Both the position numbers and the translations under genes were made by a program. A stretch of 39,176 nucleotides of DNA from Candidatus Micrarchaeota archaeon CG1_02_55_22 (GTDB lineage Archaea > Micrarchaeota > Micrarchaeia > Norongarragalinales > UBA97): the NCBI GenBank assembly GCA_001871595.1, contig MNVH01000050.1, positions 1-39,176 on the forward strand, in the 5' to 3' direction. The notes under the pieces are model-generated. The model was not told the DNA's origin. It made no database searches and worked only from the letters and a program-made list of their open reading frames with translations. Shown here in pieces: positions 2,117 through 15,108 of the stretch. The stretch's first letter is position 1. Each line of letters begins with the position of its first letter.

Positions 2117-2560
2117 TTACTCAAACTTGCCCTTCACGAAGCCGGTTTGGTTGTGCGAGATTCCGCTCTTGGAGTCCGTGAACGAAACCAACACGTTTGT
2201 CTGATCAAACGACGTACCAGTCGTACCACCATTGGCAATGAATCCGTTTATTGTGCAGGTGGTGTTGCCGTTGGCTGCGATGCTTGTCGGGGTGCAGGTT
2301 GCGTCAGTGCCGGAGCTTGACGTGAAGCTGGTGATGCGCGTGCCTTGTCCGTTGTTGAGCACGATTACCAGTGCGCCGGAGATGTTGACTTTGAAGTCTT
2401 GGCAGACTAAGGAGTCGAAGCCGCCGCACTGCTTTCCTGCGGAGAATTTGTCGGGGTTGAATACGCCGGTTGCGTACAATATGCCCATAATTATGACTAA
2501 TGCGAGTATGGCCCATCCATACGTTACCAGGTATTCTAATGCACTTTGACCGCGCTTCAT
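2117..2560 (-). CDS. archaeal type IV pilin with class III signal peptide
   Basis: A 147-residue major-pilin-like protein. It starts MKRGQSALEYLVTYGW: a short basic leader, a G|Q cleavage site and Glu at +5 of the mature protein, then a hydrophobic helix to about residue 28. In archaea such leaders are cut by EppA/FlaK-type prepilin peptidases; none is in this window. The mature part is Thr/Ser/Asn/Gly rich with N-x-S/T sequons (for example NIS, NTT, NQT) and four cysteines that could pair. The start ATG has a GGAGG site 10 nt upstream. It is transcribed divergently from the large surface protein at 2639 and ends in a clear hairpin. The small size and isolated transcription unit fit a major fibre subunit, with the other pilin-like genes of the locus as minor subunits (inference). 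Confidence 0.88.
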   Translation of the reverse strand: MKRGQSALEYLVTYGWAILALVIIMGILYATGVFNPDKFSAGKQCGGFDSLVCQDFKVNISGALVIVLNNGQGTRITSFTSSSGTDATCTPTSIAANGNTTCTINGFIANGGTTGTSFDQTNVLVSFTDSKSGISHNQTGFVKGKFE

Positions 2561-2619: not shown

Positions 2620-2638
2620 GTTGGCGTTATTGTTTGGA

Positions 2639-5638
2639 ATGACCAAACGGCTCCTCGTCTTATTTCTCTTAGTCCTGCCGTTGGCTGGTGCTTTGGACTT
2701 ATCTGCGCCGCATTTGTGCTTGAATACGCCCATTAGCGCGCCAATCGAGAACGTGTCTTTCGGTCGTGGGGGCTTTGCGACCGATAGCAACTTGTCGACC
2801 GGCGTGTCGACTGAACCCTTTTTAGTTCTCGATTTCGGGCAACCCCAAACAATAACGAACTACAACATCACCGCCACGTCGAACAATTGCGGCTGTACTG
2901 AATCGCTTTACCTCGAATACCTAAACGACGCGTCCGTTTGGACGCCGGCCCGATACCCGGACCGGAACGGCAACGCGCAAGCCGTGTTGGGCGGCTACTG
3001 CCAGCTATCTATCGGATACGCTGAAGTATTTCCGCGCACGGCGCGGTACTGGCGCGTGCGCAGCAGCGGCGCTTGCCCGGGTGCGAAAATCTTGGAATTA
3101 AACTTGTCAGCTTACCCGCAGCAATGCCAAGCCAAGTTCGCGCAACTCGTTTCAGTCAACGAATCGAACCTTTCTTACGTCTATAACGAGGTGTCACTCA
3201 ATGATTCCAAGAACAACCGCGTGATAGCGCTCCGTATGGCGAACGGCTCGGGCATAGAACTCGCTTCAGACTACGGTGGCTTCCAAAGAAGCCCGCTTAG
3301 CGCGTTTCAGTCCTCCGACAAGGTAACCTATCTGTACGACCACTATACCAACAACGGCAACTGCGACATACTAAAAACAAGGTCATTCGACCTCGCCACA
3401 AACAGCTTAACCCCAACCTTTGCGGACACGTACCATAGTTGGGATAATGGCCATTCTTCGCTTGGCATTTCGTATAATGCTTCAAATTTGTTTCTGCAAT
3501 ATTCGGATGTCGCCGATTGCGCGGTTGGTGGCTGGAATCAGATTAGCGGTCGTATTTTTAATTCAGTTTCTGGCGCTTTACTTAGGAGTCAGGTCATTCA
3601 GATAGGTTATGAGATTGACGCGTGGAGTGGGTTTCAGTCGGGTTCTGAGGGCAGGTTGTTGAAGTCGCCCGGGTTGGAGATTCGCGCGCAAACCATTTAC
3701 TGGAATAACTTCTCTTTGGGCCCGGATTACCAAGTCTACAATAGTTCGGGCAACGACAACACGCCGTACTATTTCGATAACGGCTCGCACGTGCTTTTCT
3801 CTTCGGACGAGCAAGGGCCGCGAGAAATCTATTACGTTCCGGCGGACTGCAACAACGTTTGCACGCCAGTACAAGTAACAAACGATTCCTCATCGAACAA
3901 GAACTTAACATCAGTGCTCGACGACGGCGATTCAACTTACTACGCCTATGTTTTGAATAACTCTAATGCTTCTTTCTACGGCGTGCTCCGTTTGGCGCCG
4001 TACGCGTGGAACGCTTCAAGCAACAATTCTAACGCCAGTCAACTTGCTCTTTTGTCGTTGTCGTGGGAAGATGCGTACGGCTTGTTGAACTACACCATTT
4101 CAACCAATTCGACCGGCACATGGACGAATTATACCGGCAACGCTTCTGGCACTAGCGTCACGGTAAACGCTTCAATTACGCTCAACGATTCGGTCGGTAA
4201 CGTCGTGACCTGGAAGAGCTGGGCTTTCGACAGCCAGAACAAGTCGCGCGAAAGCGAAACGTACTACATCGTAATCACCGACGGCCAACCACCCCAATAC
4301 GGGGTAGCGTCGGTAAACACTACCGCCGCCAACGCGACCGCCCTCGTAACCGCGGCGTGGACGGACGATTACGCGCTCGACAGTTACTGGTACGAGTACG
4401 ACAACGGCGATGGCAGTCCGGTGGTTTTAGCCCCTGAAACAATGATTGGTGACGCTAATTTCTCGGCGTTCGAAGTGCAACTAAACGCCACGGAAAACGC
4501 GTCAATAGTCCTGCGCGTGTACGCCAACGATTCCTACGGAAACTCCAACTACACCGAATTGGCGTTCAATACCACGGACTCGACGCCGCCAACGCTTTCC
4601 GGATTCGTGTTGTCTGCAACAACCAATTTTATTACTTACGGTTTCAACGCGGACGAACCGGTAAACCATTCAACCAATTTCGCCACCGCGAGCACGGATT
4701 ACTTGTTGAGCCACAGTGGTACGATTACTGGACTCGCTCCTAATACCGCGTACTCGATTGAGTTCACTGCTTGCGACGTGTGGGCTAACTGCGTCAAGGA
4801 AACGCGTTCGACGACAACTCAACCTACTCCAACGCCCGCCGCACCGTCCGGGGGCTCGGGCGGCGGAAGTCCTTCTTCATTCTACGCCACGCCAACTCCC
4901 CTGCCGTCACCTAGTCCGTCTCCGACGCCCGTGCCTTCGCCACTACCGACGGTTTCACCATCACCTACCCCGATGTATTCGCCGGAACCGTTCTTTCCCC
5001 CAGAAATAAAAATAGATTTGTCCGACGATGGTACTGCCGAGATAACTGTTGAGAGCGAGGGCGAACCAGAGTCCGGCAAGATAACGATTCGCGGTCCGGG
5101 AGAAAAATCGTTCGAACAACTGCTCGACGAAGACGGCAAGGCCGCGGTCGTATTGGATGAACCCGGCGAGTGGACTATACAATACGGCGATACAAGCAAA
5201 TCCTTCAATTATGCGCCAAAGCCAATCGAACCCTCGAAAGGAACTGGCTTTTTCTTTGCAGGATTCGACCCGTTAATAATAGTTGGTTTGCTCTTGGCGT
5301 TGGCGGCAGCCGCGTACGTCTACAAAACCGTTCTAGTTCCCAAGCCCGTGATTCTGACCCGTTCGGTTGACGGACGCAACGTATTGTTGCGTGTGCACAA
5401 CAACGGCGGCGATTTGACCGGGCTTCGTTTGACTGAGCTCTCGCAGAACAAGTCCGCACAAGGTGCTTTCAAGACCGACACTGTGCTCGGCGTGCTGCTT
5501 TCGTGGGAAAACGCGGCTCTCGAAAAGGGCGAGGAGTGGGTTGTTGAGTATTCTGTTACTGAAGGCGCGCCCGACGGCTCTTGTACGGAGTTGACCGCAA
5601 CGACTTCTGACGGAAAACCTTTCAAGATAACGCTCTGA
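2639..5638 (+). CDS. large membrane-anchored surface glycoprotein (discoidin-like head, Ig-like repeats, Pro/Ser stalk)
   Basis: A ~999-residue secreted protein. The ATG at 2639 is preferred over TTG 2621 because a TATA box sits 25 nt before it and the signal peptide begins there (MTKRLLVLFLLVLPLAGA). Residues ~30-165 resemble a discoidin/F5-8C-type jelly roll (FLVLDFGQPQTITNYNI, RYWRVRSS). The next ~200 residues are beta-rich and unrecognised. Residues ~470-720 contain three or so Ig/FnIII-like repeats (for example SWEDAYGLLNYTIST and AWTDDYALDSYWYEY). A Pro/Thr/Ser stalk (~725-790) leads to a small beta domain. One membrane helix follows near residues 880-900 and then an unusual ~90-residue beta domain on the far side. 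N-x-S/T sequons are dense, which fits heavy N-glycosylation. Probable adhesin or S-layer-like component; exact ligand unknown. Confidence 0.75.
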   Translation: MTKRLLVLFLLVLPLAGALDLSAPHLCLNTPISAPIENVSFGRGGFATDSNLSTGVSTEPFLVLDFGQPQTITNYNITATSNNCGCTESLYLEYLNDASVWTPARYPDRNGNAQAVLGGYCQLSIGYAEVFPRTARYWRVRSSGACPGAKILELNLSAYPQQCQAKFAQLVSVNESNLSYVYNEVSLNDSKNNRVIALRMANGSGIELASDYGGFQRSPLSAFQSSDKVTYLYDHYTNNGNCDILKTRSFDLATNSLTPTFADTYHSWDNGHSSLGISYNASNLFLQYSDVADCAVGGWNQISGRIFNSVSGALLRSQVIQIGYEIDAWSGFQSGSEGRLLKSPGLEIRAQTIYWNNFSLGPDYQVYNSSGNDNTPYYFDNGSHVLFSSDEQGPREIYYVPADCNNVCTPVQVTNDSSSNKNLTSVLDDGDSTYYAYVLNNSNASFYGVLRLAPYAWNASSNNSNASQLALLSLSWEDAYGLLNYTISTNSTGTWTNYTGNASGTSVTVNASITLNDSVGNVVTWKSWAFDSQNKSRESETYYIVITDGQPPQYGVASVNTTAANATALVTAAWTDDYALDSYWYEYDNGDGSPVVLAPETMIGDANFSAFEVQLNATENASIVLRVYANDSYGNSNYTELAFNTTDSTPPTLSGFVLSATTNFITYGFNADEPVNHSTNFATASTDYLLSHSGTITGLAPNTAYSIEFTACDVWANCVKETRSTTTQPTPTPAAPSGGSGGGSPSSFYATPTPLPSPSPSPTPVPSPLPTVSPSPTPMYSPEPFFPPEIKIDLSDDGTAEITVESEGEPESGKITIRGPGEKSFEQLLDEDGKAAVVLDEPGEWTIQYGDTSKSFNYAPKPIEPSKGTGFFFAGFDPLIIVGLLLALAAAAYVYKTVLVPKPVILTRSVDGRNVLLRVHNNGGDLTGLRLTELSQNKSAQGAFKTDTVLGVLLSWENAALEKGEEWVVEYSVTEGAPDGSCTELTATTSDGKPFKITL
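4820..5001 (+). repeat. Pro/Ser/Thr-rich stalk coding region
   Basis: Low-complexity codons for PTPTP, PSPSPSPTP and similar runs between the Ig-like region and the membrane-proximal domain of the surface glycoprotein. It is probably an extended, possibly O-glycosylated spacer. Confidence 0.7.
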
Positions 5639-5643
5639 AACCG

Positions 5644-5651
5644 TTTTTAAG
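5644..5651 (+). promoter_or_regulatory. TATA box for the propeller pilin
   Basis: TTTTTAAG is centred 26-27 nt upstream of the GTG at 5674. This supports a leaderless mRNA and this start codon rather than TTG 5668. Confidence 0.55.
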
Positions 5652-5673
5652 CGTTGACGGTTTTACTTTGTGC

Positions 5674-7446
5674 GTGGAGAGATTTCGCGGGCAAGTCGGC
5701 CTAGAATACTTGACGTTAATAGCGCTTCTAATGGTGGCCATAGTACCCTTGGCGTATATTTCTTACACGTCGTTCAAAGCCCAAAACGACTTAGTGCAAG
5801 CTCACCTCGCGGTGGATGAGCTCTCCCACGCAGCCGAATTCGTCCGGGCGCAAGGGCCTGGTGCTGCAGTGACCGTTAACGTGCGCATGCCGCAAGGCGT
5901 TGTTTCGTCTGACGCGAGTGGCCGTGAAATCTTCTTCAAAGTATCGAATTGGAAGGGTGACGATACTGACGTGTACGCTGCTCTGAGCGGGCAAGTTACG
6001 CCCACTACCTTGCCGACCGCGTCGGGAGAGTACTCGTTCAAGGTATCCTACTTGGAGAACGGCAACGTTACCTTCAGCGACGCGGGCGAGCCCACGCCGA
6101 CGCCTGGTCCGACCGCCACGCCCACTATCACACCTACTCCCACGCCTACGCCGACTCCGACGCCTACACCAACACCTACACCCGTGCCTTCCTCGACTCC
6201 GACGCCTACGCCGACGCCTGGTCCGGCTTACAACATCAATGCTATGGTAGCCTACTTTGACGCCGGTTCGACTAGCGATTACAAGTTCAGGCTGCAAAAC
6301 ATAAGCGGATGGAGCCCAGAGTACGGCGGGTTGAGCGGAGTCACTGAAGGGAAAACTTTCTACGAAGTCCGTGCCGCGCCGACGCGCAACGAGTTCCTGC
6401 TCGTAATCCAGACGAACAACGGCGACATCGTGGCGCAAGTGTGGCACGACACGTACTGGAGCGACCAGGTAACGCTCGCGACTAACGCCGCTGCAAGCAC
6501 AAGCTACCAAGCATTCGATGTGCAGTACTTTAATTCTACGGGCCGCGCCATGGTTGCCTACAAGCGTTCGAGCAACAACGTCGGTTACCGCATTTGGGAC
6601 GGCGCGTCGTGGAGCAGCGAGAGCGTGGCCAGCTCGACCGGCCTATCGGGTACTATAGATATCGTTCAGCTCGCGGCCAACCCGCTCACTGAAGAGGCGT
6701 TGCTCGGAGTGGTTACGTCGGGCGATAACGTCTACGTCCAGCAGTGGACTCTTGGCGCGGGTTCGTTCAGCTCGCCGCAATCATTGGAGGGAAGCGCCAC
6801 GCTTTACGGCCAAGTTATGGATCTTGTGTACGAGCAGCAGAGCGGCGACGGGCTCATCGTTTACCGGCAAAGCAATGACGCTAACCCGCGTTACCGGACG
6901 TGGAACGGCGCGTCGTGGTCGTCCGAATTGCAGGCGAACAGCATTGGTGGCAAGGCCCAGTGGGTGTCGCTCTCAACAGACCCTGCTTCGAATAGAATAA
7001 TGCTTATGGATAGCGATAATTCTGACGACATCAACGTCCAATTCTGGGATGGCGCGTCGTGGGGCAGCGTCACCGAACTCAATAGCAACCTCGAGACTCA
7101 GAGCTACCGCGTGTTCGACGGTGGGTTCCTTGGCGGGAGTGGTGCGGCGATAATTGTCTACGGAGAGCAGAACGTTCAGACGCCGACGTACCGCACGTGG
7201 ACTTCAGGCGGGGGGTGGAGCGCAGCAGGCAGCACGCTCGACATTGCGGGCGACTCGCAAGTCATGCGCCTTTCTACCACACCCATTTCGAACGAGGCCA
7301 TTTTGGTTGTAGGAGACGACACGAACAATCACGTTTCGGCAATGCGTTGGACTGGTTCGGCTTGGACTGACTTGGGCTTGTTTGAGACGAATGGTTACTC
7401 GCAGGGCGAGAGCTTTGCAGTCGCCCAGAAACGCTATTCAGGTTGA
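5674..7446 (+). CDS. class III pilin fused to Thr-Pro stalk and beta-propeller-like repeat domain
   Basis: A ~590-residue protein. The N-terminus MERFRGQVGLEYLTLIALL is a class III signal peptide (G|Q, Glu at +5) with a hydrophobic helix to about residue 33. A small pilin-like beta region (~40-140) follows, then a run of Thr-Pro dipeptides (~140-185). The remaining ~400 residues hold about eight repeats of ~45-50 residues. Each has a Y/V-x-x-W-x-G-A-S-W-S-type strand (YRIWDGASWSSE, YRTWNGASWSSE, VQFWDGASWGSV, AMRWTGSAWTDL) and a later A-N-E-A-L/I-L-V-V-like strand. The repeat pattern suggests a 7-8 bladed propeller; this is inference from periodicity. The protein could be a tip adhesin displayed on the fibre. 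The start is leaderless GTG. The next gene begins five bases after the stop codon. Confidence 0.78.
   Translation: MERFRGQVGLEYLTLIALLMVAIVPLAYISYTSFKAQNDLVQAHLAVDELSHAAEFVRAQGPGAAVTVNVRMPQGVVSSDASGREIFFKVSNWKGDDTDVYAALSGQVTPTTLPTASGEYSFKVSYLENGNVTFSDAGEPTPTPGPTATPTITPTPTPTPTPTPTPTPTPVPSSTPTPTPTPGPAYNINAMVAYFDAGSTSDYKFRLQNISGWSPEYGGLSGVTEGKTFYEVRAAPTRNEFLLVIQTNNGDIVAQVWHDTYWSDQVTLATNAAASTSYQAFDVQYFNSTGRAMVAYKRSSNNVGYRIWDGASWSSESVASSTGLSGTIDIVQLAANPLTEEALLGVVTSGDNVYVQQWTLGAGSFSSPQSLEGSATLYGQVMDLVYEQQSGDGLIVYRQSNDANPRYRTWNGASWSSELQANSIGGKAQWVSLSTDPASNRIMLMDSDNSDDINVQFWDGASWGSVTELNSNLETQSYRVFDGGFLGGSGAAIIVYGEQNVQTPTYRTWTSGGGWSAAGSTLDIAGDSQVMRLSTTPISNEAILVVGDDTNNHVSAMRWTGSAWTDLGLFETNGYSQGESFAVAQKRYSG
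6091..6228 (+). repeat. Thr-Pro dipeptide repeat (pilin stalk)
   Basis: Tandem ACN-CCN codons encode PTPTP-type runs between the pilin module and the repeat domain. Synonymous third positions vary, so the array is kept at protein level rather than by recent slippage. Confidence 0.85.
6270..7430 (+). repeat. about eight W-x-G-A-S-W repeats (putative propeller blades)
   Basis: The repeat signature recurs about every 140-150 bases. Three copies share the 12-mer GGCGCGTCGTGG exactly (near 6601, 6907 and 7052), so some blades arose by fairly recent duplication. The first and last copies are more diverged. Confidence 0.7.
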
Positions 7447-7450
7447 TTTG

Positions 7451-7879
7451 ATGCGTGGCCAAGCGGGACTTGAATTCGTTGCGGTAATGGGCTTCGTCAT
7501 ACTTTTCTTTGCCATTGCTTCCCTCGCGATTTCACAGTACTCTTTGCAAGTCGACGCCAAGGCAGAATCCGTGGATGCTTCCCGGCTCGCCGCACAAATA
7601 TCTAGCATTGCATCAATCGCGTCGGCCTCGACTGGTTACCGTTCCGAGTTCGACGTACCCGGCTCGCTCTTTGGCGGGGCACCGTACTCGGTTATCGTGG
7701 GGAACGCGAGTGTAATAGTTTCGTTCGAAGGCCAGCGCGGTTTTATCAATGTGTCCGCGCCGCATTCGGCTTATGCGGTTACGAACAACGAATCAAGCGG
7801 CCCGGGGTTTGCGTTGGCTGCGGGCAGGTACGCTGCTTACGAGCAAGGTGGAAAGGTTGTATTCGAAAAAATCGGTTAA
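7451..7879 (+). CDS. class III pilin (minor subunit)
   Basis: A 142-residue pilin beginning MRGQAGLEFVAVMGFVILFF: G|Q cleavage site, Glu at +5 and a long hydrophobic N-helix. The rest is a Ser/Ala-rich helix continuation followed by a small beta domain with sequons (NAS, NVS, NES). The ATG at 7451 lies five bases after the stop of the propeller pilin, and the longer upstream frame is discarded because it reads back into that gene. The end overlaps the next gene by 23 bases. It is part of a string of overlapping pilin-like genes up to 10287, so coordinated production of minor pilins is likely. Confidence 0.82.
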   Translation: MRGQAGLEFVAVMGFVILFFAIASLAISQYSLQVDAKAESVDASRLAAQISSIASIASASTGYRSEFDVPGSLFGGAPYSVIVGNASVIVSFEGQRGFINVSAPHSAYAVTNNESSGPGFALAAGRYAAYEQGGKVVFEKIG

Positions 7880-8948
7880 AGGACAAGTCTTCTCAATAGA
7901 CTTGCTCATAGCAATAATGCTCTTCGGCGTCGTCCTCCTTATGTTCGCCTCAAACTACGGCAACCTCTACGAGCACGAAACGCCGTGGTACGAGCGGGCG
8001 GTGGGCACGGCCCGGCGCACGGCTCTTTTGTTGGCAACGACGCCGGGGGCACCAGAGAATTGGGCTAACTCGTCGTTTGCCTTGCCCGGCTTTGCCTCTG
8101 AGCCTTTCATAGTTTCCGAGCCGCTCCTTGAACAGTTCCTTCAAGCCGACGACGAAGCGGTTTTTGAATCGTTTGGTGCACAAGGTTTCCGGGTTTTCGT
8201 CAATCTCTCCCTTCAAGACCGTTCTGTTGCGCGGGCGGGAGGTATTCCGTTTAGTCGCATTGCTTATACGCGGGCTGGTGGCTCTGAGGGAGAGGCGGCT
8301 GACAACGGTTTTAGGCACTACTTGCTTTCCGAGGGCATCCCGTTCACCGAGTACTCTGCCAACGGCAACTCGCAAGACTTTATCGAGCTGTTGAGCAGCA
8401 TTGCTTTGTACGACACGGTTGTTGTCGAGGCCGCCCGAATCAATTCAACGCAACTCGACGCCAGCCAGCAGGCTGCCTTCAGCGACTGGGTGGCATCCGG
8501 CGGTAACTACGTGCAAAAACAGGAGGGAACAGTGATAGAATTATTGAACGCCACGCAGTCCTACGCCTCGCAGGGCCGTGTCGTCATCGCGAGCGGGCTT
8601 TTACGCAACGCATCCTACAACGACGCGGTCGCGTGCACGGGCAGCGTGGCGATTTCGAACGCGTCGGTAGGGCAAGACTTTACGTATCTAGTCAACGCGT
8701 CGAACGGGGCGGCATTGTTCGCCTCGTGGCCTTACGGTGGCGGTCGCGTTTATTTCGCGTGCGACACGCAGGGCACGGTTACAGGGAGTTTGCCTCAAAC
8801 TGACTTGATGGCGATAAACAACTTTTTCGGGTTGCGCGCCGAGAAGGGTGATGCGCCGGTCAATGCGACGGTCAGCGTGCCTTATTCTCTGCCGGTGGCT
8901 TACCGTTCAAATAATGGGGTGTTGGAGGTTATTGCGTGGATAGATTGA
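7857..8948 (+). CDS. large pilin-like protein with variant N-terminal helix
   Basis: A ~363-residue protein starting LYSKKSVKGQVFSIDLLIAI, then a membrane helix. The KG-Q-x-F-S-x-D pattern resembles a class III leader but has Asp at +6 instead of Glu at +5; the next two genes have related starts (KGFAFTAD, KRGFIFTA). I chose TTG 7857 because GGTGG lies 5 nt upstream; it overlaps the preceding pilin by 23 bases. The ectodomain contains many sequons. Its middle part (LSEGIPFTEYS, LYDTVVVEAA, then VASGGNYV and GRVVIASG) suggests an alpha/beta fold like the GATase1-like or ThuA-like domains used in surface proteins, but this is weak. Probable minor pilin or fibre-associated protein; whether it is processed is unknown. 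Confidence 0.65.
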   Translation: MYSKKSVKGQVFSIDLLIAIMLFGVVLLMFASNYGNLYEHETPWYERAVGTARRTALLLATTPGAPENWANSSFALPGFASEPFIVSEPLLEQFLQADDEAVFESFGAQGFRVFVNLSLQDRSVARAGGIPFSRIAYTRAGGSEGEAADNGFRHYLLSEGIPFTEYSANGNSQDFIELLSSIALYDTVVVEAARINSTQLDASQQAAFSDWVASGGNYVQKQEGTVIELLNATQSYASQGRVVIASGLLRNASYNDAVACTGSVAISNASVGQDFTYLVNASNGAALFASWPYGGGRVYFACDTQGTVTGSLPQTDLMAINNFFGLRAEKGDAPVNATVSVPYSLPVAYRSNNGVLEVIAWID

Positions 8949-9424
8949 AGGGGTTCGCTTTTACTGCGGATGCTTCAATGGCGTTACTGCTAGGCGTGGC
9001 CGTATTGTATACTATAGTTGCAAGTCAGACTGCCTTGAGTTTGGAGCCTGCATTGAGGCTTAAAGTCGTGTCCGAATCCTTTGGCGCAACCCTTGAATCA
9101 ACCGGAACGTTTGCAGGTATGGCTGTTTTGGATGACGCTTCCGCCGCTTCCACGCTCTATGCTGCCCAGCTACGTTTAATACCCCCGCAATTCGCGTCGA
9201 ACGTGTCCGTTTCATTCTACGAGTATTCTACTGGTGCGTGTTCTGCGTCTTGTCAGTTGGCGGGCGTCGCGCCGGCGGGTTCACTTTGCCTTTGCAAGTA
9301 CGTTTCATCTAACACCACAGGGGGTTCGGGAAATGCATCGGTCACCGCCCTGTCGCGCCGTGTATTCTTCGTGCCAAAATATGGTTGGTACGGGATTGCA
9401 ACAACCGAGGTGTCGTTGAATTGA
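8936..9424 (+). CDS. pilin-like protein, KGFAFTAD-type N-terminus
   Basis: A 162-residue protein. A strong GGAGGT site at 8924-8929 lies 6 nt before GTG 8936, which overlaps the preceding gene's end by 13 bases. The start MDRLKGFAFTADASMALLLG is a short basic leader plus hydrophobic helix like the neighbouring genes but without the Glu+5 of a canonical type IV pilin. A globular part follows with a C-x3-C ... C-x-C cluster (CSASC, CLC) near residues 100-120, then SNTTGGSGNAS sequons. Cysteine pairs could be disulfides outside the cell. Probably a minor pilin-like subunit of the same structure; I do not recognise a named family. Confidence 0.65.
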   Translation: MDRLKGFAFTADASMALLLGVAVLYTIVASQTALSLEPALRLKVVSESFGATLESTGTFAGMAVLDDASAASTLYAAQLRLIPPQFASNVSVSFYEYSTGACSASCQLAGVAPAGSLCLCKYVSSNTTGGSGNASVTALSRRVFFVPKYGWYGIATTEVSLN

Positions 9425-10287
9425 AGCGAGGATTCATCTTTACTGCGGTGGCGATAATGCTTTTCTCAATCCTGCTTTCACTTGCTGTTCTTAACGCTCA
9501 AGCCTCTCGTTCTGCAGAGCTCGCCGACTATTCGTCTTTTGTTCGCATCGCTTCCGCGTGGGGCGACGTGTCCGACGACGTTTCCACGTTGGCTGGATTA
9601 AACGTTTCTCGTAATTCCGAGAATCTTTCATTCACCGACAGGCTTCCAGCGTCTGGTATTCCGGCGCGTTTTGCGGGTCTTGCAGCGCTTTTGTCCGCCC
9701 ACTATGCAATCGGTCTGGACGTAGCGTTGAGCAACGCGTCCGGCGCGCAATCCTTTTCTGGTATAGCGCCGCCCTTTGAGTTGTGGCCGTACGGCATAAA
9801 CTATTCCTATGGCAACGCCTGGGCGAAGGACGCGCTCCTAATAGAATCCCCGTCAAACAATTACTCCGCCTTGAGTTCGGCGACGTTAGTGGTTAACGCT
9901 TCCGGGCTTTGGTTTGCGGGCAATATGGATCGCTCGTGTTCTTCTTGGACGGACTATTCGGCGTGCCTTTCGAACTGCTTCAACCTGACTTTGGTGCTCG
10001 TTGACGCCAACGGCTCGGTCAATCGAAGCACGTGCACCACGTTTATCCCCACTGCCAAGAACACGCTGCACGTGGCGTTAGCCAATTACTCGTCTTCGGG
10101 GTGGGTTGAAGTCTCTGTCGGCGCGCTCCCGACGCTTTTAAACATAAGTTTTGTCAACGTTTCAGTCGCTACCCAGGTGAATTTCACCCTTCCTTCACGG
10201 GCATTCCGCGTTTATTTGCCGTTGAATCTATCCGTGGCCGATAATTACTTCAACGCGTCCAAAAAAGAGCGTTTGAGGGCGGCCTAG
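9421..10287 (+). CDS. pilin-like glycoprotein, KRGFIFTA-type N-terminus
   Basis: A ~288-residue protein. TTG 9421 overlaps the preceding stop (TTGA), and GAGGTG sits 7 nt upstream, so translational coupling is likely. It begins MKRGFIFTAVAIMLFSILLS: basic leader plus membrane helix, third of the non-canonical trio. The ectodomain is Ser/Asn rich with many sequons (NVS, NLS, NYS, NAS, NRS and others) and a CSSWTDYSACLSNC cysteine cluster near residues 175-190. No catalytic motif is visible. As last gene of the pilin string it is probably a surface-exposed component of the fibre or its base. A fresh TATA box starts the next unit at 10292. Confidence 0.65.
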   Translation: MKRGFIFTAVAIMLFSILLSLAVLNAQASRSAELADYSSFVRIASAWGDVSDDVSTLAGLNVSRNSENLSFTDRLPASGIPARFAGLAALLSAHYAIGLDVALSNASGAQSFSGIAPPFELWPYGINYSYGNAWAKDALLIESPSNNYSALSSATLVVNASGLWFAGNMDRSCSSWTDYSACLSNCFNLTLVLVDANGSVNRSTCTTFIPTAKNTLHVALANYSSSGWVEVSVGALPTLLNISFVNVSVATQVNFTLPSRAFRVYLPLNLSVADNYFNASKKERLRAA

Positions 10288-10327: not shown

Positions 10328-11140
10328 TTGGATGGGTACATAGTACAGGACGAAATAGATACCGCGATAGATCGCTTGCTTGATTACGTACGGCGCCGGG
10401 GCAAGGCAAAGCTAGGGGATTGCGCAGCCTCCCTAGCCATGACGCCAGACCAAGTTGAGAATGTGGCGCTCTTGCTCCAAGTGCATGGTCTCCTAGAGGT
10501 TCGCTACCATATCACGGGCATAGAACTAGCCCTGCCGCCCGATGACAGTAAAACCGAGGAAAAGCAGAAGGAAGACTTCAAGGAAAAACTCGGCATACTT
10601 GAAAAAGAAGTCGTCCGGTCACAGAGCCTCATGGAGTTCTTTGAGAAAGACCTCGAACGGCGTATCCTGATTGCCGAGAAGATTGTCGAAGACCTTGAGG
10701 CGAGGCCCGCGTATACTGCGGAAGAAATAGCTTTGTCAAAAGAAGAAATAGCCATCGCGCTCAAGCAGCTCGACGCGTTCGGGAGCGAAATCGGCCTGCT
10801 CAAGCTCAAGGAAGGACATTTCAAGGAAAAACTTGAGGCGTTCATGAAGCGCCTTGAGGCAATAAAGCCCTCGGCGCAGCCTGCGCGAGCCCAAAACCTT
10901 TTACAGCGCCTTCTAGCCATGCTTAAAAGCATAGTTCTTGAGGCGAAGCTCATACTTTCTGGAAAAGAAAAACTGGTTTTGGAAGAACGCCCCGAATTTG
11001 ATGCCGAAAAGAAGCATGTTGAAGCACAGCTCGCGGCAATAATACGGACGCCGCTTCCCTCCGTGGCCAAGAAGCAGAAGCAGTCCGCCGAAGTCCTGCC
11101 AAAAAAGCAGGCTGCTAAGGAAAAGGAGAAAGACGAATGA
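10328..11140 (+). CDS. winged-helix plus coiled-coil protein of the pilus operon
   Basis: A 270-residue cytoplasmic protein. Residues ~5-68 fit a winged helix (IDTAIDRLLDYVRRRGKAKL ... MTPDQVENVALLLQVHGLLE ... ITGIELAL). Residues ~75-180 are a long charged coiled coil and the C-terminus is a Lys-rich tail. No transmembrane segment. It ends in an ATGA overlap with the secretion ATPase, so the two are made together. Similar winged-helix/coiled-coil genes next to pilus ATPases occur in other archaeal genomes as far as I recall. Their position recalls the ArlC/D/E or ArlX coiled-coil scaffold genes beside the archaellum motor, but homology is not shown. Start TTG is weakly supported. Confidence 0.6.
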   Translation: MDGYIVQDEIDTAIDRLLDYVRRRGKAKLGDCAASLAMTPDQVENVALLLQVHGLLEVRYHITGIELALPPDDSKTEEKQKEDFKEKLGILEKEVVRSQSLMEFFEKDLERRILIAEKIVEDLEARPAYTAEEIALSKEEIAIALKQLDAFGSEIGLLKLKEGHFKEKLEAFMKRLEAIKPSAQPARAQNLLQRLLAMLKSIVLEAKLILSGKEKLVLEERPEFDAEKKHVEAQLAAIIRTPLPSVAKKQKQSAEVLPKKQAAKEKEKDE

Positions 11141-13185
11141 CTGAACTCGAGTCCTATACCGTAGAGGACCAAGGCGTTACCGCGACGGTCGTGATAGGCG
11201 ACTTGCCGTCTGAATTCGTTAAGTCTTACACTCTCGAACACGCAAAGCTCAAGGGACCCACTCGGGCCGTGCTCGGCTATTTGAAAGAAAAGATAATTGA
11301 ATCAGTAAATTTGAAGATCTCCGAGATAATGGACCCGCGCCAGTTAACAATCATCCGCGAACGCGTTTCCAACAAGGCGCGAGAACTAGTCCGCACCGAA
11401 CTCGGCGGATTGAGCCCGGAAGAAGAGCGAATCGTCGTCGGGCGTCTTCTGCAGGAAATGCTTGGTCTGGGGGAAATCGATTTGCTGTTGTCGGATTTCT
11501 ACCTTGAAGAAATCGTCATAAACTCCGCAGGCGAACCAATCTGGGTGTATCACATCCGCCATGGTTGGCTAAAGACCAACGTAATGCTTGAATCAGAAGA
11601 ACAAATCCATAACTATGCATCCATAATAGGCCGGCGGGTCGGAAAACAGATAACCAATCTTGACCCGCTCATGGATGCTCACCTGCTCTCCGGTGACCGG
11701 GTCAACGCCACGCTCTTCCCCATATCAACCAAGGGCAATAGTATCACAATAAGAAAGTTCGCGAAAGACCCGTGGACAATAGTCTCGCTTATAGCCAATA
11801 ATACGCTTTCGTCTGAAGCCGCGGCCACATTCTGGACCGCCCTCCAGTATGAAATGAACGTCCTTATTGGAGGCGGCACGGCAAGCGGAAAAACATCGTT
11901 CCTTAATTCGGTCCTCGTCTTTACTCCGCCCAACCAGCGCTTGATAAGTATTGAAGACAGCGTGTCTGGCGACGCTGAAATATTCTTCGAGCGTGACGGT
12001 AAAATGCAGCGTTCGACCGTTGCCGGCTTGATTGACGCGTTAGTAGACGCACACGGAACCGTTCTGCCCGACGGCGCCCAAGTAGCACTCAATCCCGGCG
12101 GTATCAAGGTGCACAGCATGTCCTCCGACGGCGCAATACAACTCGTTGAACCATCCTGCTTTATTCGGCACCACACCAGCAAGCAACTCTTCGAGGTTTC
12201 CACCGCTGGCGGTGCGAGCGTTAAAGTCACGGCTGACCACTCGCTTTTCACGCGCACGCCCGCCGGAGAAATCGCTGCAGCGAAAACAAACGAGTTGTGT
12301 CAGGGCCAGGAAATCGCTACGTTTTCGACGACTTCCGCCGCATCCGCTTCTCCAGTAGCACAGCAAATTCAACTCGTCGGCAGCCGTAAGAACTTAGCGC
12401 AATGGTCGCCTATTACGCGAATTACTCCCCTGCCGGTTGGGGCATCGACCGTGTACGACTTCAGTGTGCCTGCGAACGAGAGCTTCGTTGCCAATGGCGT
12501 GGTATGCCATAACACGCGAGAGTTGCAACTGCCCGACTTTCTCCATTGGACCCCGCTCAGTACGCGCCAACCCAATCCTGAAGGCAAGGGCGGCGTGGAA
12601 ATGCTTGATTTGATGACTAATTCCCTTCGCATGCGGCCCGACCGCATCGTGCTCGGAGAAATTCGTCGACAACGTGAAGCCGAAGTTCTATTTGAGGCAA
12701 TGCACACTGGCCACAGCGTGTACTCCACGTTGCACGCTGATGATTCCTCGCAGGTGAAGAACCGCCTTACGAGCCCTCCAATCTCGCTCCCGGAACAACT
12801 CCTCGGAGCGCTACACTTGATTGCCGTACAGTATCGTCAACGCCGTATTGGAATACGTCGCACCTTTGAAATCGCCGAAATACTTCCTTCGGATTCAGGG
12901 GCTTCAGTAAACATCATCTACAAGTGGGATGCACGAAAAGACTTGCTAGTTAAGGTCGGTGAGCCCATCCGGTTTATGAACGAGCTCGTGATGCACACTG
13001 GGTTTACGCAAAAAGAAGTCGTAGAAGACATTGCCCAGAAACAACTCATTCTCGAATCAATGCAAAAGGCCAAAATCAGTACGGTCGAGGATGTAGGCCG
13101 CGTTGTCGCCGCTTACTACCGCCACCCGGAGAATGTTGTCGAACTCGCCGAGAAGGGAGACTTCTCGCCCGTATTGTACCGGTGA
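11137..13185 (+). CDS. type II/IV secretion (pilus assembly) ATPase, intein-containing
   Basis: A 682-residue precursor that drives pilin assembly as a hexameric cytoplasmic ATPase of the GspE/TadA/ArlI/KlbA superfamily. The N-domain covers ~1-190. Walker A is GGTASGKT at residues 246-253. The Asp-box strand LISIED (269-274) is interrupted after D274 by a 185-residue intein and resumes at T460 (TRELQLPDF). Then come LRMRPDRIVLGEIR (Walker B-like, with the catalytic Glu), the His box TGHSVYSTLHAD and a C-terminal domain ending near 682. Removing the intein leaves a normal ~497-residue enzyme. The ATG overlaps the upstream stop (ATGA). The two membrane platform genes follow directly. Function depends on intein splicing, because the insert separates Walker A from the catalytic Glu. 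Confidence 0.92.
   Translation: MTELESYTVEDQGVTATVVIGDLPSEFVKSYTLEHAKLKGPTRAVLGYLKEKIIESVNLKISEIMDPRQLTIIRERVSNKARELVRTELGGLSPEEERIVVGRLLQEMLGLGEIDLLLSDFYLEEIVINSAGEPIWVYHIRHGWLKTNVMLESEEQIHNYASIIGRRVGKQITNLDPLMDAHLLSGDRVNATLFPISTKGNSITIRKFAKDPWTIVSLIANNTLSSEAAATFWTALQYEMNVLIGGGTASGKTSFLNSVLVFTPPNQRLISIEDSVSGDAEIFFERDGKMQRSTVAGLIDALVDAHGTVLPDGAQVALNPGGIKVHSMSSDGAIQLVEPSCFIRHHTSKQLFEVSTAGGASVKVTADHSLFTRTPAGEIAAAKTNELCQGQEIATFSTTSAASASPVAQQIQLVGSRKNLAQWSPITRITPLPVGASTVYDFSVPANESFVANGVVCHNTRELQLPDFLHWTPLSTRQPNPEGKGGVEMLDLMTNSLRMRPDRIVLGEIRRQREAEVLFEAMHTGHSVYSTLHADDSSQVKNRLTSPPISLPEQLLGALHLIAVQYRQRRIGIRRTFEIAEILPSDSGASVNIIYKWDARKDLLVKVGEPIRFMNELVMHTGFTQKEVVEDIAQKQLILESMQKAKISTVEDVGRVVAAYYRHPENVVELAEKGDFSPVLYR
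11959..12513 (+). other. mini-intein (Ser1, no homing endonuclease) inside the secretion ATPase
   Basis: In-frame insertion of 185 residues (275-459 of the precursor). Block A is SVSGDAEIFFERDG, with Ser as residue 1. Block B is VKVTADHSLFT, with the T-x-x-H motif at 365-368. Block F/G is VYDFSVPAN ... SFVANGVVCHN, ending His458-Asn459, and the +1 extein residue is Thr460. There is no room for and no trace of a LAGLIDADG endonuclease. All residues needed for class 1 splicing are present. Base composition is like the host gene, so the element is not a recent arrival. Inteins are known in the related KlbA ATPases of archaea. Confidence 0.92.
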
Positions 13186-13192
13186 CGTAATC

Positions 13193-14065
13193 TTGTTCAA
13201 GCCGCCCTTTGCATTCCTCCCGCCCAACGTGTCGTTAAGCCTTTCCCATCATTTCCACAGTGCTGGCCACTTTGCCAGCGTTTTCTTTCCCTCGCTCCGT
13301 GAAGACCTTTTGCAATCAGAAATACCCTTCTCGCAAATTAATTATGCCGCCCTCGCGCTCTCGGTTGCCATCACGAATGCGCTTGCAATGGGCGTACTGC
13401 TCGGCGTGTTGGCCATCGGTTTGTCAAACGCCCTTCTTGGAGCGGCTGCAGGCCTTGTTACCTTTGGCGTGTTTTTCATTTCGTTTCTCACGGTCTTATA
13501 CTACCCTCGCATAATAGCTCGGAAGAGAGCGCGAGAGCTTGAACGTAATCTGATCCCGGCAATACAACAGCTCTTGATAGAAATAAAGTCTGGAGTCACG
13601 CTCTTCAACGCCATGGCCTCGGTTTCGCAAGACTACGGTGAGGTAAGTAAAGAATTCAAGAAAATAGTCGTAAAAATGAATTCCGGAATACACGAGCTCG
13701 ACGCGCTCAGCGAAGTCACAGAAGCCAACCCGTCAAAGTCCTTCAGGAAGGCCTTGTGGCAGATATCGAATGCGCTAAAAGTAGGCAGCAACCTTTCAGG
13801 CGTACTCGAGAATCAGGTTACTGTGCTTACTCGTGAAAGAATCGATCAAATACGGCGGTACGGGCAAGAACTCTCACCGTGGACGATGATGTACATGATG
13901 GCAGCCGTGATAATGCCCAGTATCGGAGTCGCGATGCTCATAGTTATCATGGGTTTCCTTAGTTTTTCTTTGCCGCGGGTCGTATTGGCCGCTTTGTGGA
14001 TATTTCTCGCAGTGTTCCAATTGTTCTTTATGAATCTAGTCGCATCGCGGAGGCCCGCAATATAA
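13193..14065 (+). CDS. pilus platform membrane protein, T2SSF/TadC-like (first copy)
   Basis: A ~290-residue integral membrane protein. TTG 13193 is chosen because GGTGA lies 7 nt upstream; the longer frame reads back into the ATPase gene. Two membrane helices near residues 55-110 are followed by a cytoplasmic T2SSF-type helical domain (ERNLIPAIQQLLIEIKSGVTLFNAM, then SKSFRKALWQISNALKVG and LSGVLENQV). Two more helices lie near the C-terminus. This is the layout of GspF/TadC/ArlJ halves that sit in the membrane under the pilus and contact the ATPase. Its stop codon overlaps the next ATG (TAATG), so the two platform proteins are probably made in equal amounts and pair. Confidence 0.85.
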   Translation: MFKPPFAFLPPNVSLSLSHHFHSAGHFASVFFPSLREDLLQSEIPFSQINYAALALSVAITNALAMGVLLGVLAIGLSNALLGAAAGLVTFGVFFISFLTVLYYPRIIARKRARELERNLIPAIQQLLIEIKSGVTLFNAMASVSQDYGEVSKEFKKIVVKMNSGIHELDALSEVTEANPSKSFRKALWQISNALKVGSNLSGVLENQVTVLTRERIDQIRRYGQELSPWTMMYMMAAVIMPSIGVAMLIVIMGFLSFSLPRVVLAALWIFLAVFQLFFMNLVASRRPAI

Positions 14066-15108
14066 TGCTACGCATCCACATCTACGATAAAGTTTCGGGG
14101 TTATTCCCAAACCGGTTTGTAAACTGGCTTTCGCGATTCATGGCTCAAGGTGGGTTCGACGAGATATCGTCGCGGACCTATCTCGGCTTTTCAATATTCT
14201 TTTCAATCGCCCTAGCAGTAATAGCTTTCTTCGCAGCGGCAATATTTTCCGAGGACTTGCTCGTTCGAGTCGCGACGCCCGTGCTAGTCTTAGTCCTCGC
14301 GTTGTTCTCGTTTTATCTCCTCCTCGCGCTCAGCGCGGAATCCCGTGCGCAGAAGATTGAGGAAGTCTTGCCTGAAGCCCTCCAAATCATTTCGGCCAAC
14401 ATAAGGTCTGGAATGACTCTAGAAAACGCTATCTGGGGCTCTGCGCGCTCCGAATTCGGCCCACTTAAAGACGAGATAAAACGCGTCAGTTCCGATACGT
14501 TTAGCGGCGTTCCAATAGATCGAGCCTTGAGAAAGATGAGTGACCGAGTCAAGTCAACCATCCTCGAACGCGCGGTTAAACTAATCTACGAAGGCATAAG
14601 CCTTGGTGGCGAAATGGCGCCGTTGCTCGAAGCGGTATCCCTCGACATTCGTAACATTCAGCTCCTCCGCAAGGAAATATCCACTAGCACACTCACCTAC
14701 GCCATCTTCATCGTCTTTGCCGGCGTCATCGCCGCCCCGTTGCTATTCAGCGTCTCGACTTTCTATTCGGAAATCAATGCTGGAATAATGGAGAAACAGT
14801 ACCAACGCAGCGCGGGCGGTACATCCCTCGATACCGCTGCACAACGCGCGGGAGTCGCGGGGTTGCCCGGTATCGGAACGCGTTCGAAGCCTTCTGAGGA
14901 TGCCATAACCCCGCAGGACGTCTACTGGTTTGCCTTAGCAAGCATAATACTGACCAGTCTATGCGCGGGTTTGTTAGTCGGGCTAGTGCAAACCGGCAAG
15001 GCAGTTAATGGAATAAAGTATTCGCCGTTCTTCATCATACTCTCGCTTGCATTGTTTACGCTTCTCTTGAACGTCTTGCGAGCCACCATTGGGACTCTGG
15101 CGGTATAA
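14065..15108 (+). CDS. pilus platform membrane protein, T2SSF/TadC-like (second copy)
   Basis: A ~347-residue paralogue-type partner of the preceding protein. ATG 14065 overlaps the previous stop (TAATG); a GGAGG lies 12-13 nt upstream. Membrane helices near residues 40-60 and 65-95 precede the T2SSF domain (EEVLPEALQIISANIRSGMT and LEAVSLDIRNIQLLRKE). A pair of helices near 215-245 follows, then an extra Ser/Gly-rich cytoplasmic or external loop (~255-290) and two C-terminal helices. Split platform pairs (TadB/TadC-like) are common in archaeal pilus operons. With the ATPase and coiled-coil protein this completes the assembly motor; a prepilin peptidase is missing from the window. Confidence 0.85.
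   Translation: MLRIHIYDKVSGLFPNRFVNWLSRFMAQGGFDEISSRTYLGFSIFFSIALAVIAFFAAAIFSEDLLVRVATPVLVLVLALFSFYLLLALSAESRAQKIEEVLPEALQIISANIRSGMTLENAIWGSARSEFGPLKDEIKRVSSDTFSGVPIDRALRKMSDRVKSTILERAVKLIYEGISLGGEMAPLLEAVSLDIRNIQLLRKEISTSTLTYAIFIVFAGVIAAPLLFSVSTFYSEINAGIMEKQYQRSAGGTSLDTAAQRAGVAGLPGIGTRSKPSEDAITPQDVYWFALASIILTSLCAGLLVGLVQTGKAVNGIKYSPFFIILSLALFTLLLNVLRATIGTLAV

Follow-up and report, generated by a model that had tools for sequence, protein, structure and literature searches.

A putative class 1 mini-intein inside the Asp box of a pilus-type ATPase from a Micrarchaeota genome

The window analysed here is a stretch of 39,176 nucleotides from Candidatus Micrarchaeota archaeon CG1_02_55_22 (contig MNVH01000050.1), whose genome (G000) comprises 1.19 Mb in 73 contigs and is 82% complete. 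Translation of the window gives a forward-strand open reading frame (11137-13185) encoding a T2SSE/pilus-type ATPase of 682 amino acids with an in-frame insert of 185 residues (Table 1). The best NCBIfam match of the ATPase is the archaellum ATPase model NF058587 (251 bits, under its cut-off of 550). Downstream lie two T2SSF (TadC-like) genes and then a gene for a KaiC-type ATPase. The surrounding gene set is type IV pilus/archaellum-like, and the host is probably a pilus ATPase. Upstream, at 2117-2560 (reverse strand) and 2621-10287 (forward strand), are encoded pilin-like proteins whose hydrophobic N-termini are of class III type, together with long surface proteins rich in Thr/Pro or Ser; most of these proteins had no match in Pfam.

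Table 1 Features of the ATPase gene, its insert and the adjacent pilus genes (window coordinates)
Feature	Position	Strand	Basis
N-extein (274 aa), pilus/T2SS-type ATPase, ends ...LISIED	11137-11958	+	T2SSE PF00437
Walker A motif GGGTASGKT	11869-11895	+	sequence
Mini-intein, 185 aa, Ser1 ... His184-Asn185	11959-12513	+	PF14890 1.3e-14; TIGR01445 and TIGR01443; AlphaFold2 model
Intein N-terminal splicing region	11962-12252	+	TIGR01445, intein residues 2-98
Block B TADH (residues 91-94)	12229-12240	+	T91 and H94 invariant in alignment A2
Poorly predicted linker, probable endonuclease remnant	12331-12399	+	alignment with full-length relatives carrying LAGLIDADG there; low pLDDT
Blocks F and G, VYDFSVPANESFVANGVVCHN	12451-12513	+	TIGR01443 7e-7
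C-extein (223 aa), starts with Thr+1 (TRELQLPDF)	12514-13182	+	T2SSE 9.2e-27 (whole protein); stop codon ends at 13185
Walker B Glu codon	12658-12660	+	in C-extein
His box	near 12700-12741	+	in C-extein
T2SSF/TadC-type pilus platform protein 1 (start uncertain)	13226-14065	+	PF00482 3.4e-15
T2SSF/TadC-type pilus platform protein 2	13996-15108	+	PF00482 1.5e-13

The insert (residues 275-459 of the reading frame, flanked by LISIED and TRELQLPDF) matched the Pfam Intein_splicing family (PF14890) at 1.3e-14, scoring 54.7 bits (cut-off 35.8). Both NCBIfam splicing-region models also matched over their cut-offs (TIGR01445 at 1.1e-7, TIGR01443 at 7e-7). Pfam returned solely Intein_splicing and Hint matches within the 185 residues, and no endonuclease domain. 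The insert contains Ser1, TADH, VYDFSV and His184-Asn185 and is followed by a Thr at +1; the class 1 residues are all invariant among its relatives. The AlphaFold2 model, built with five homologues, has a pLDDT of 86.5 and a pTM of 0.82, with pLDDT falling to 58-73 across intein residues 121-150. This poorly predicted linker is the place where endonucleases usually sit. The window segment 11959-12513 is thereby confirmed, by sequence, as a class 1 mini-intein inside the Asp box (IED/TREL, the slash marking the junction). The original prediction had described an in-frame mini-intein of exactly this length, with a Ser1 fitting class 1, in a pilus ATPase, and had proposed a Hint-domain search as a check; the three family matches, the residues listed above, the T2SSE match and the two T2SSF genes downstream all bear it out.

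The closest solved inteins are those of Methanocaldococcus TFIIB (PDB 5o9j and 5o9i), which are the best match in both sequence and fold: the profile of the window intein matched solved inteins with E-values down to 2.7e-27, and the best structure match of the model was the TFIIB mini-intein 5o9i (TM-score 0.80), with Pyrococcus RadA inteins also matching. The TFIIB and window inteins share VP-x-x-E-x-F in block F, and their conserved splicing blocks can be aligned over the whole length. They differ in host and site, the host here being a T2SSE protein, and native TFIIB inteins have an endonuclease domain, the solved minis being engineered (PMC6801210), whereas the window intein is naturally mini. 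Base composition gave no clear signal of recent arrival, with GC at 56.6% and GC3 at 61.1% in the intein versus 50-53% and 58-59% in the exteins. A viral source was rejected, as a scan of IMG/VR recovered distant inteins, of which the best-scoring match was 30% identical and none had an Asp-box context.

Class 1 inteins splice by an established chemistry of N-O shift, transfer, branched intermediate, Asn cyclisation and O-N shift. Ser1 would make the N-O shift and so attack the IED-Ser bond, the N-extein would be passed to Thr+1 to give the branched intermediate, and cyclisation of Asn185, aided by His184, would release the intein ahead of the O-N shift. The product would be an intact ATPase with Walker A and Walker B on one chain again, and its predicted length (682 - 185 = 497 residues) agrees with the one originally put forward. 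The claim that the insert separates Walker A from the catalytic Glu also holds, and the break can be placed more precisely, inside the Asp box. Because the insert interrupts the Asp box and parts Walker A (N-extein) from the Walker B Glu (C-extein), a working ATPase should need splicing, and ATPase activity of the precursor is unlikely.

Most orthologues are without an intein, and occupancy is patchy in both phyla concerned. Two genomes of the same family (G001 and G002) encode single-piece orthologues that are 66-67% identical over 484-492 residues. In G002 the empty join IED/TRE, the form that the original prediction expected of intein-free orthologues, can be read off the sequence, as it can in many other members of the order and class. 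At exactly the same point G004, G018 and G022 have inteins of 187, 179 and 180 aa, and 4 of the 19 orthologues seen in the order have a filled site. In the second phylum (Diapherotrites, 87 genomes, including record L114), 8 filled orthologues stand against 32 in a single piece. The Asp box of T2SS/pilus ATPases is an added insertion site for a kind of element, the class 1 mini-intein, that is itself already known. The open-access papers searched contained no description of this site or of inteins in the pilus ATPases of these archaea.

This lineage of inteins fills the Asp-box point in three paralogous subfamilies of ATPases, in two DPANN phyla, Diapherotrites and Micrarchaeota. A search with the intein plus its flanks revealed the second and third families, and 26 such inteins are counted in all, of which 12 are in the family of the window gene (P1), 12 in a second family (P2, site VQED/TQELPVP) and two in a KlbA-like family (P3, site IED/TAELNLPL). 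Nine are mini-inteins and 17 are full-length (496-516 aa), and LAGLIDADG_3 domains were present in all four of the full-length inteins tested. The full-length forms in both phyla (e.g. L114) share the site and a homologous splicing domain with the window intein and differ from it by a two-motif LAGLIDADG endonuclease of about 320 residues. The Diapherotrites inteins of P1 form a clade (support 100/99) in which minis are intermingled with full-length forms, and the tree as a whole requires at least four changes between the two; repeated loss of the endonuclease is the most likely cause. The window mini-intein is probably the endonuclease-less remnant of a homing intein.

Further inteins and interruptions were observed. 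The P2 paralogue in the genome of the window (L068, G000:C15:17500-23500) carries two inteins in one ATPase, a long one in Walker A (GAGK/C...N/TSF) and a 173-aa mini in the Asp box that is homologous to that of the window. In G002:C2 and G018:C26 the P2 paralogue (frames of 1272 and 1282 aa) is broken at a third position, at about residue 232 of the query and near the His box, and in L209 (G345), a P1 orthologue from the Diapherotrites, the C-extein of the Asp-box insert contains another intein-like insert, at EGKGGV/C. Related full-length inteins are also found in Micrarchaeota relatives (L089, L091 and L092, from G133, G091 and G118) in an inositol-phosphate-synthase-like protein, a host named by sequence alone, at the site NVGGN/S...N/T or N/S. 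Genome G000 as a whole has at least 13 inteins in 12 genes, on contigs 8, 15, 18, 22, 31, 34, 49, 50, 60 and 62 (L068-L076 and the window). Their hosts are the two T2SSE ATPases (three inteins), MCM, an SMC-like ATPase (so called only from its sequence), RadA, a Hel308-type helicase, GlmS, release factor aRF1, SufB, UvrB, PolD DP2 and RtcB.

Our best explanation as a whole, with a probability of roughly 0.9, is a class 1 mini-intein that descends, without its endonuclease, from a homing family targeting the Asp box (I/V-x-E-D followed by T-x-E-L) of DPANN pilus/T2SS-type ATPases; splicing and the inactive precursor are the inferred parts of it. Its persistence would be explained by efficient splicing and the rarity of precise loss, rather than by pilus regulation.

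The inteins of this lineage appear to have crossed between the paralogues, and the basis for this is relative divergence rather than tree topology. The splicing domains have a median identity of 42% inside P1 and of 40% across the P1-P2 pair, versus 68% and 27% for the hosts; the inteins thus outpace their host within P1 and yet are closer than the hosts across P1-P2, which indicates that the crossing postdates the split of the hosts. The P2-P3 comparison points the same way, with 41% for the inteins versus 31% for the hosts. For P1-P3 the inteins are 39% and the hosts 47% identical, and with hosts this similar the argument from identity fails for that pair. In the splicing-domain tree, which rests on a short alignment, the window intein is unplaced (support 66/70) and one clade per host family is not rejected (p-AU 0.47 for P1). 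The tree is therefore compatible with an intein inherited from before the ATPase duplication that never moved between paralogues, but the P1-P2 identities and the patchy occupancy in both phyla argue against such inheritance, and we consider it unlikely. The original prediction drew a comparison with KlbA inteins; the ATPase superfamily is indeed shared, but the insertion site and the intein lineage differ. The Methanocaldococcus jannaschii (Mja) KlbA intein (MJ0781, PDB 2jmz) belongs to class 2 (Ala1), has Cys+1, lies in the His box and is of another lineage, unlike the window intein with its Ser1, Thr+1 and Asp-box site. KlbA-like inteins do occur among relatives: the P3-type proteins L062 and L063 have Ala1 inteins in the His box (GHxG/A...), and that of L063 ends in N/CMGT and is closest among solved sequences to Mja MJ0781/KlbA (1.3e-18). 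A KlbA-like ATPase, L213 (G307), contains an Asp-box intein and an Ala1 intein at the KlbA site in one chain, and the two sites are therefore not allelic. The profile of the window intein fits TFIIB inteins at 2.7e-27 versus 3.6e-7 for KlbA. Thus, although the Mja KlbA intein is likewise a mini-intein in the same superfamily (PMC8229266), insertion site (Asp box versus the His box of a paralogue) and intein lineage rule out a KlbA allele, and a KlbA-type identity for the window intein is practically excluded.

The remaining alternatives concern what the intein does at present. A point against the preferred reading is that TFIIB inteins lose much of their splicing activity after engineered deletion of the endonuclease (PMC6801210); efficient splicing is therefore not assured in a mini form. 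As an alternative, the window intein, endonuclease-less, fast-evolving and unplaced in the tree, might have decayed to leave a dead ATPase. Such decay is highly improbable given that every splicing residue is retained, the frame is open across both exteins and the predicted fold is confident. Moreover, the closest available pair of inteins (G018 and G022) has a pN of 0.157 versus a pS of 0.844, indicating selection against amino-acid change, although synonymous sites are saturated and a statement on dN/dS is qualitative only. The intein could instead be a control switch, with splicing and pilus assembly gated by temperature, by redox through Cys183 beside His-Asn, or by a bound ligand. Precedent exists in the Pyrococcus horikoshii RadA mini-intein, whose splicing in a P-loop ATPase is gated by temperature and ssDNA (PMC5790916). 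The Pyrococcus RadA mini-inteins resemble that of the window in interrupting a P-loop ATPase at its ATP site and differ in their Walker A position; conditional splicing is experimental for RadA (PMC5790916), while the window intein is known by sequence. A Cys before His-Asn is present in the window intein and in all eight Diapherotrites P1 inteins (9 of 12 in the P1 subfamily), and is absent from the 12 P2, two P3 and three inositol-phosphate-synthase inteins. Since the eight Diapherotrites inteins belong to a single clade, they count as one event, and the distribution of Cys183 amounts to one or two evolutionary events. At this position Ala (G004) or Val (G018 and G022) is found in three Micrarchaeota relatives with the same host. 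The other cysteines of the window intein, Cys67 and Cys114, are not conserved, neither extein contains a Cys, and no conserved partner for a redox pair with Cys183 was found in intein relatives or exteins. Since most orthologues also do without the intein, a switch seems quite unlikely despite the second mini-intein that the same cell carries at the same site of the paralogue. The control point by temperature or redox suggested in the original prediction thus gained no positive evidence, although the Cys recurs. A coordinated version, in which both ATPases of the cell (the window gene and the C15 paralogue) would be held inactive by related Asp-box minis, one splicing signal switching appendage assembly on or off, with Cys183 as the sensor in the window protein, is very unlikely.

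The preferred reading, a class 1 mini-intein left by an Asp-box homing family, suggests that these archaea need protein splicing to assemble a surface appendage; were that splicing conditional, it would constitute a control point on pili. The lineage also offers a natural series of inteins, both mini and full-length, spread over three paralogous hosts and two DPANN phyla, which suits tests of paralogue jumps and of repeated endonuclease loss.
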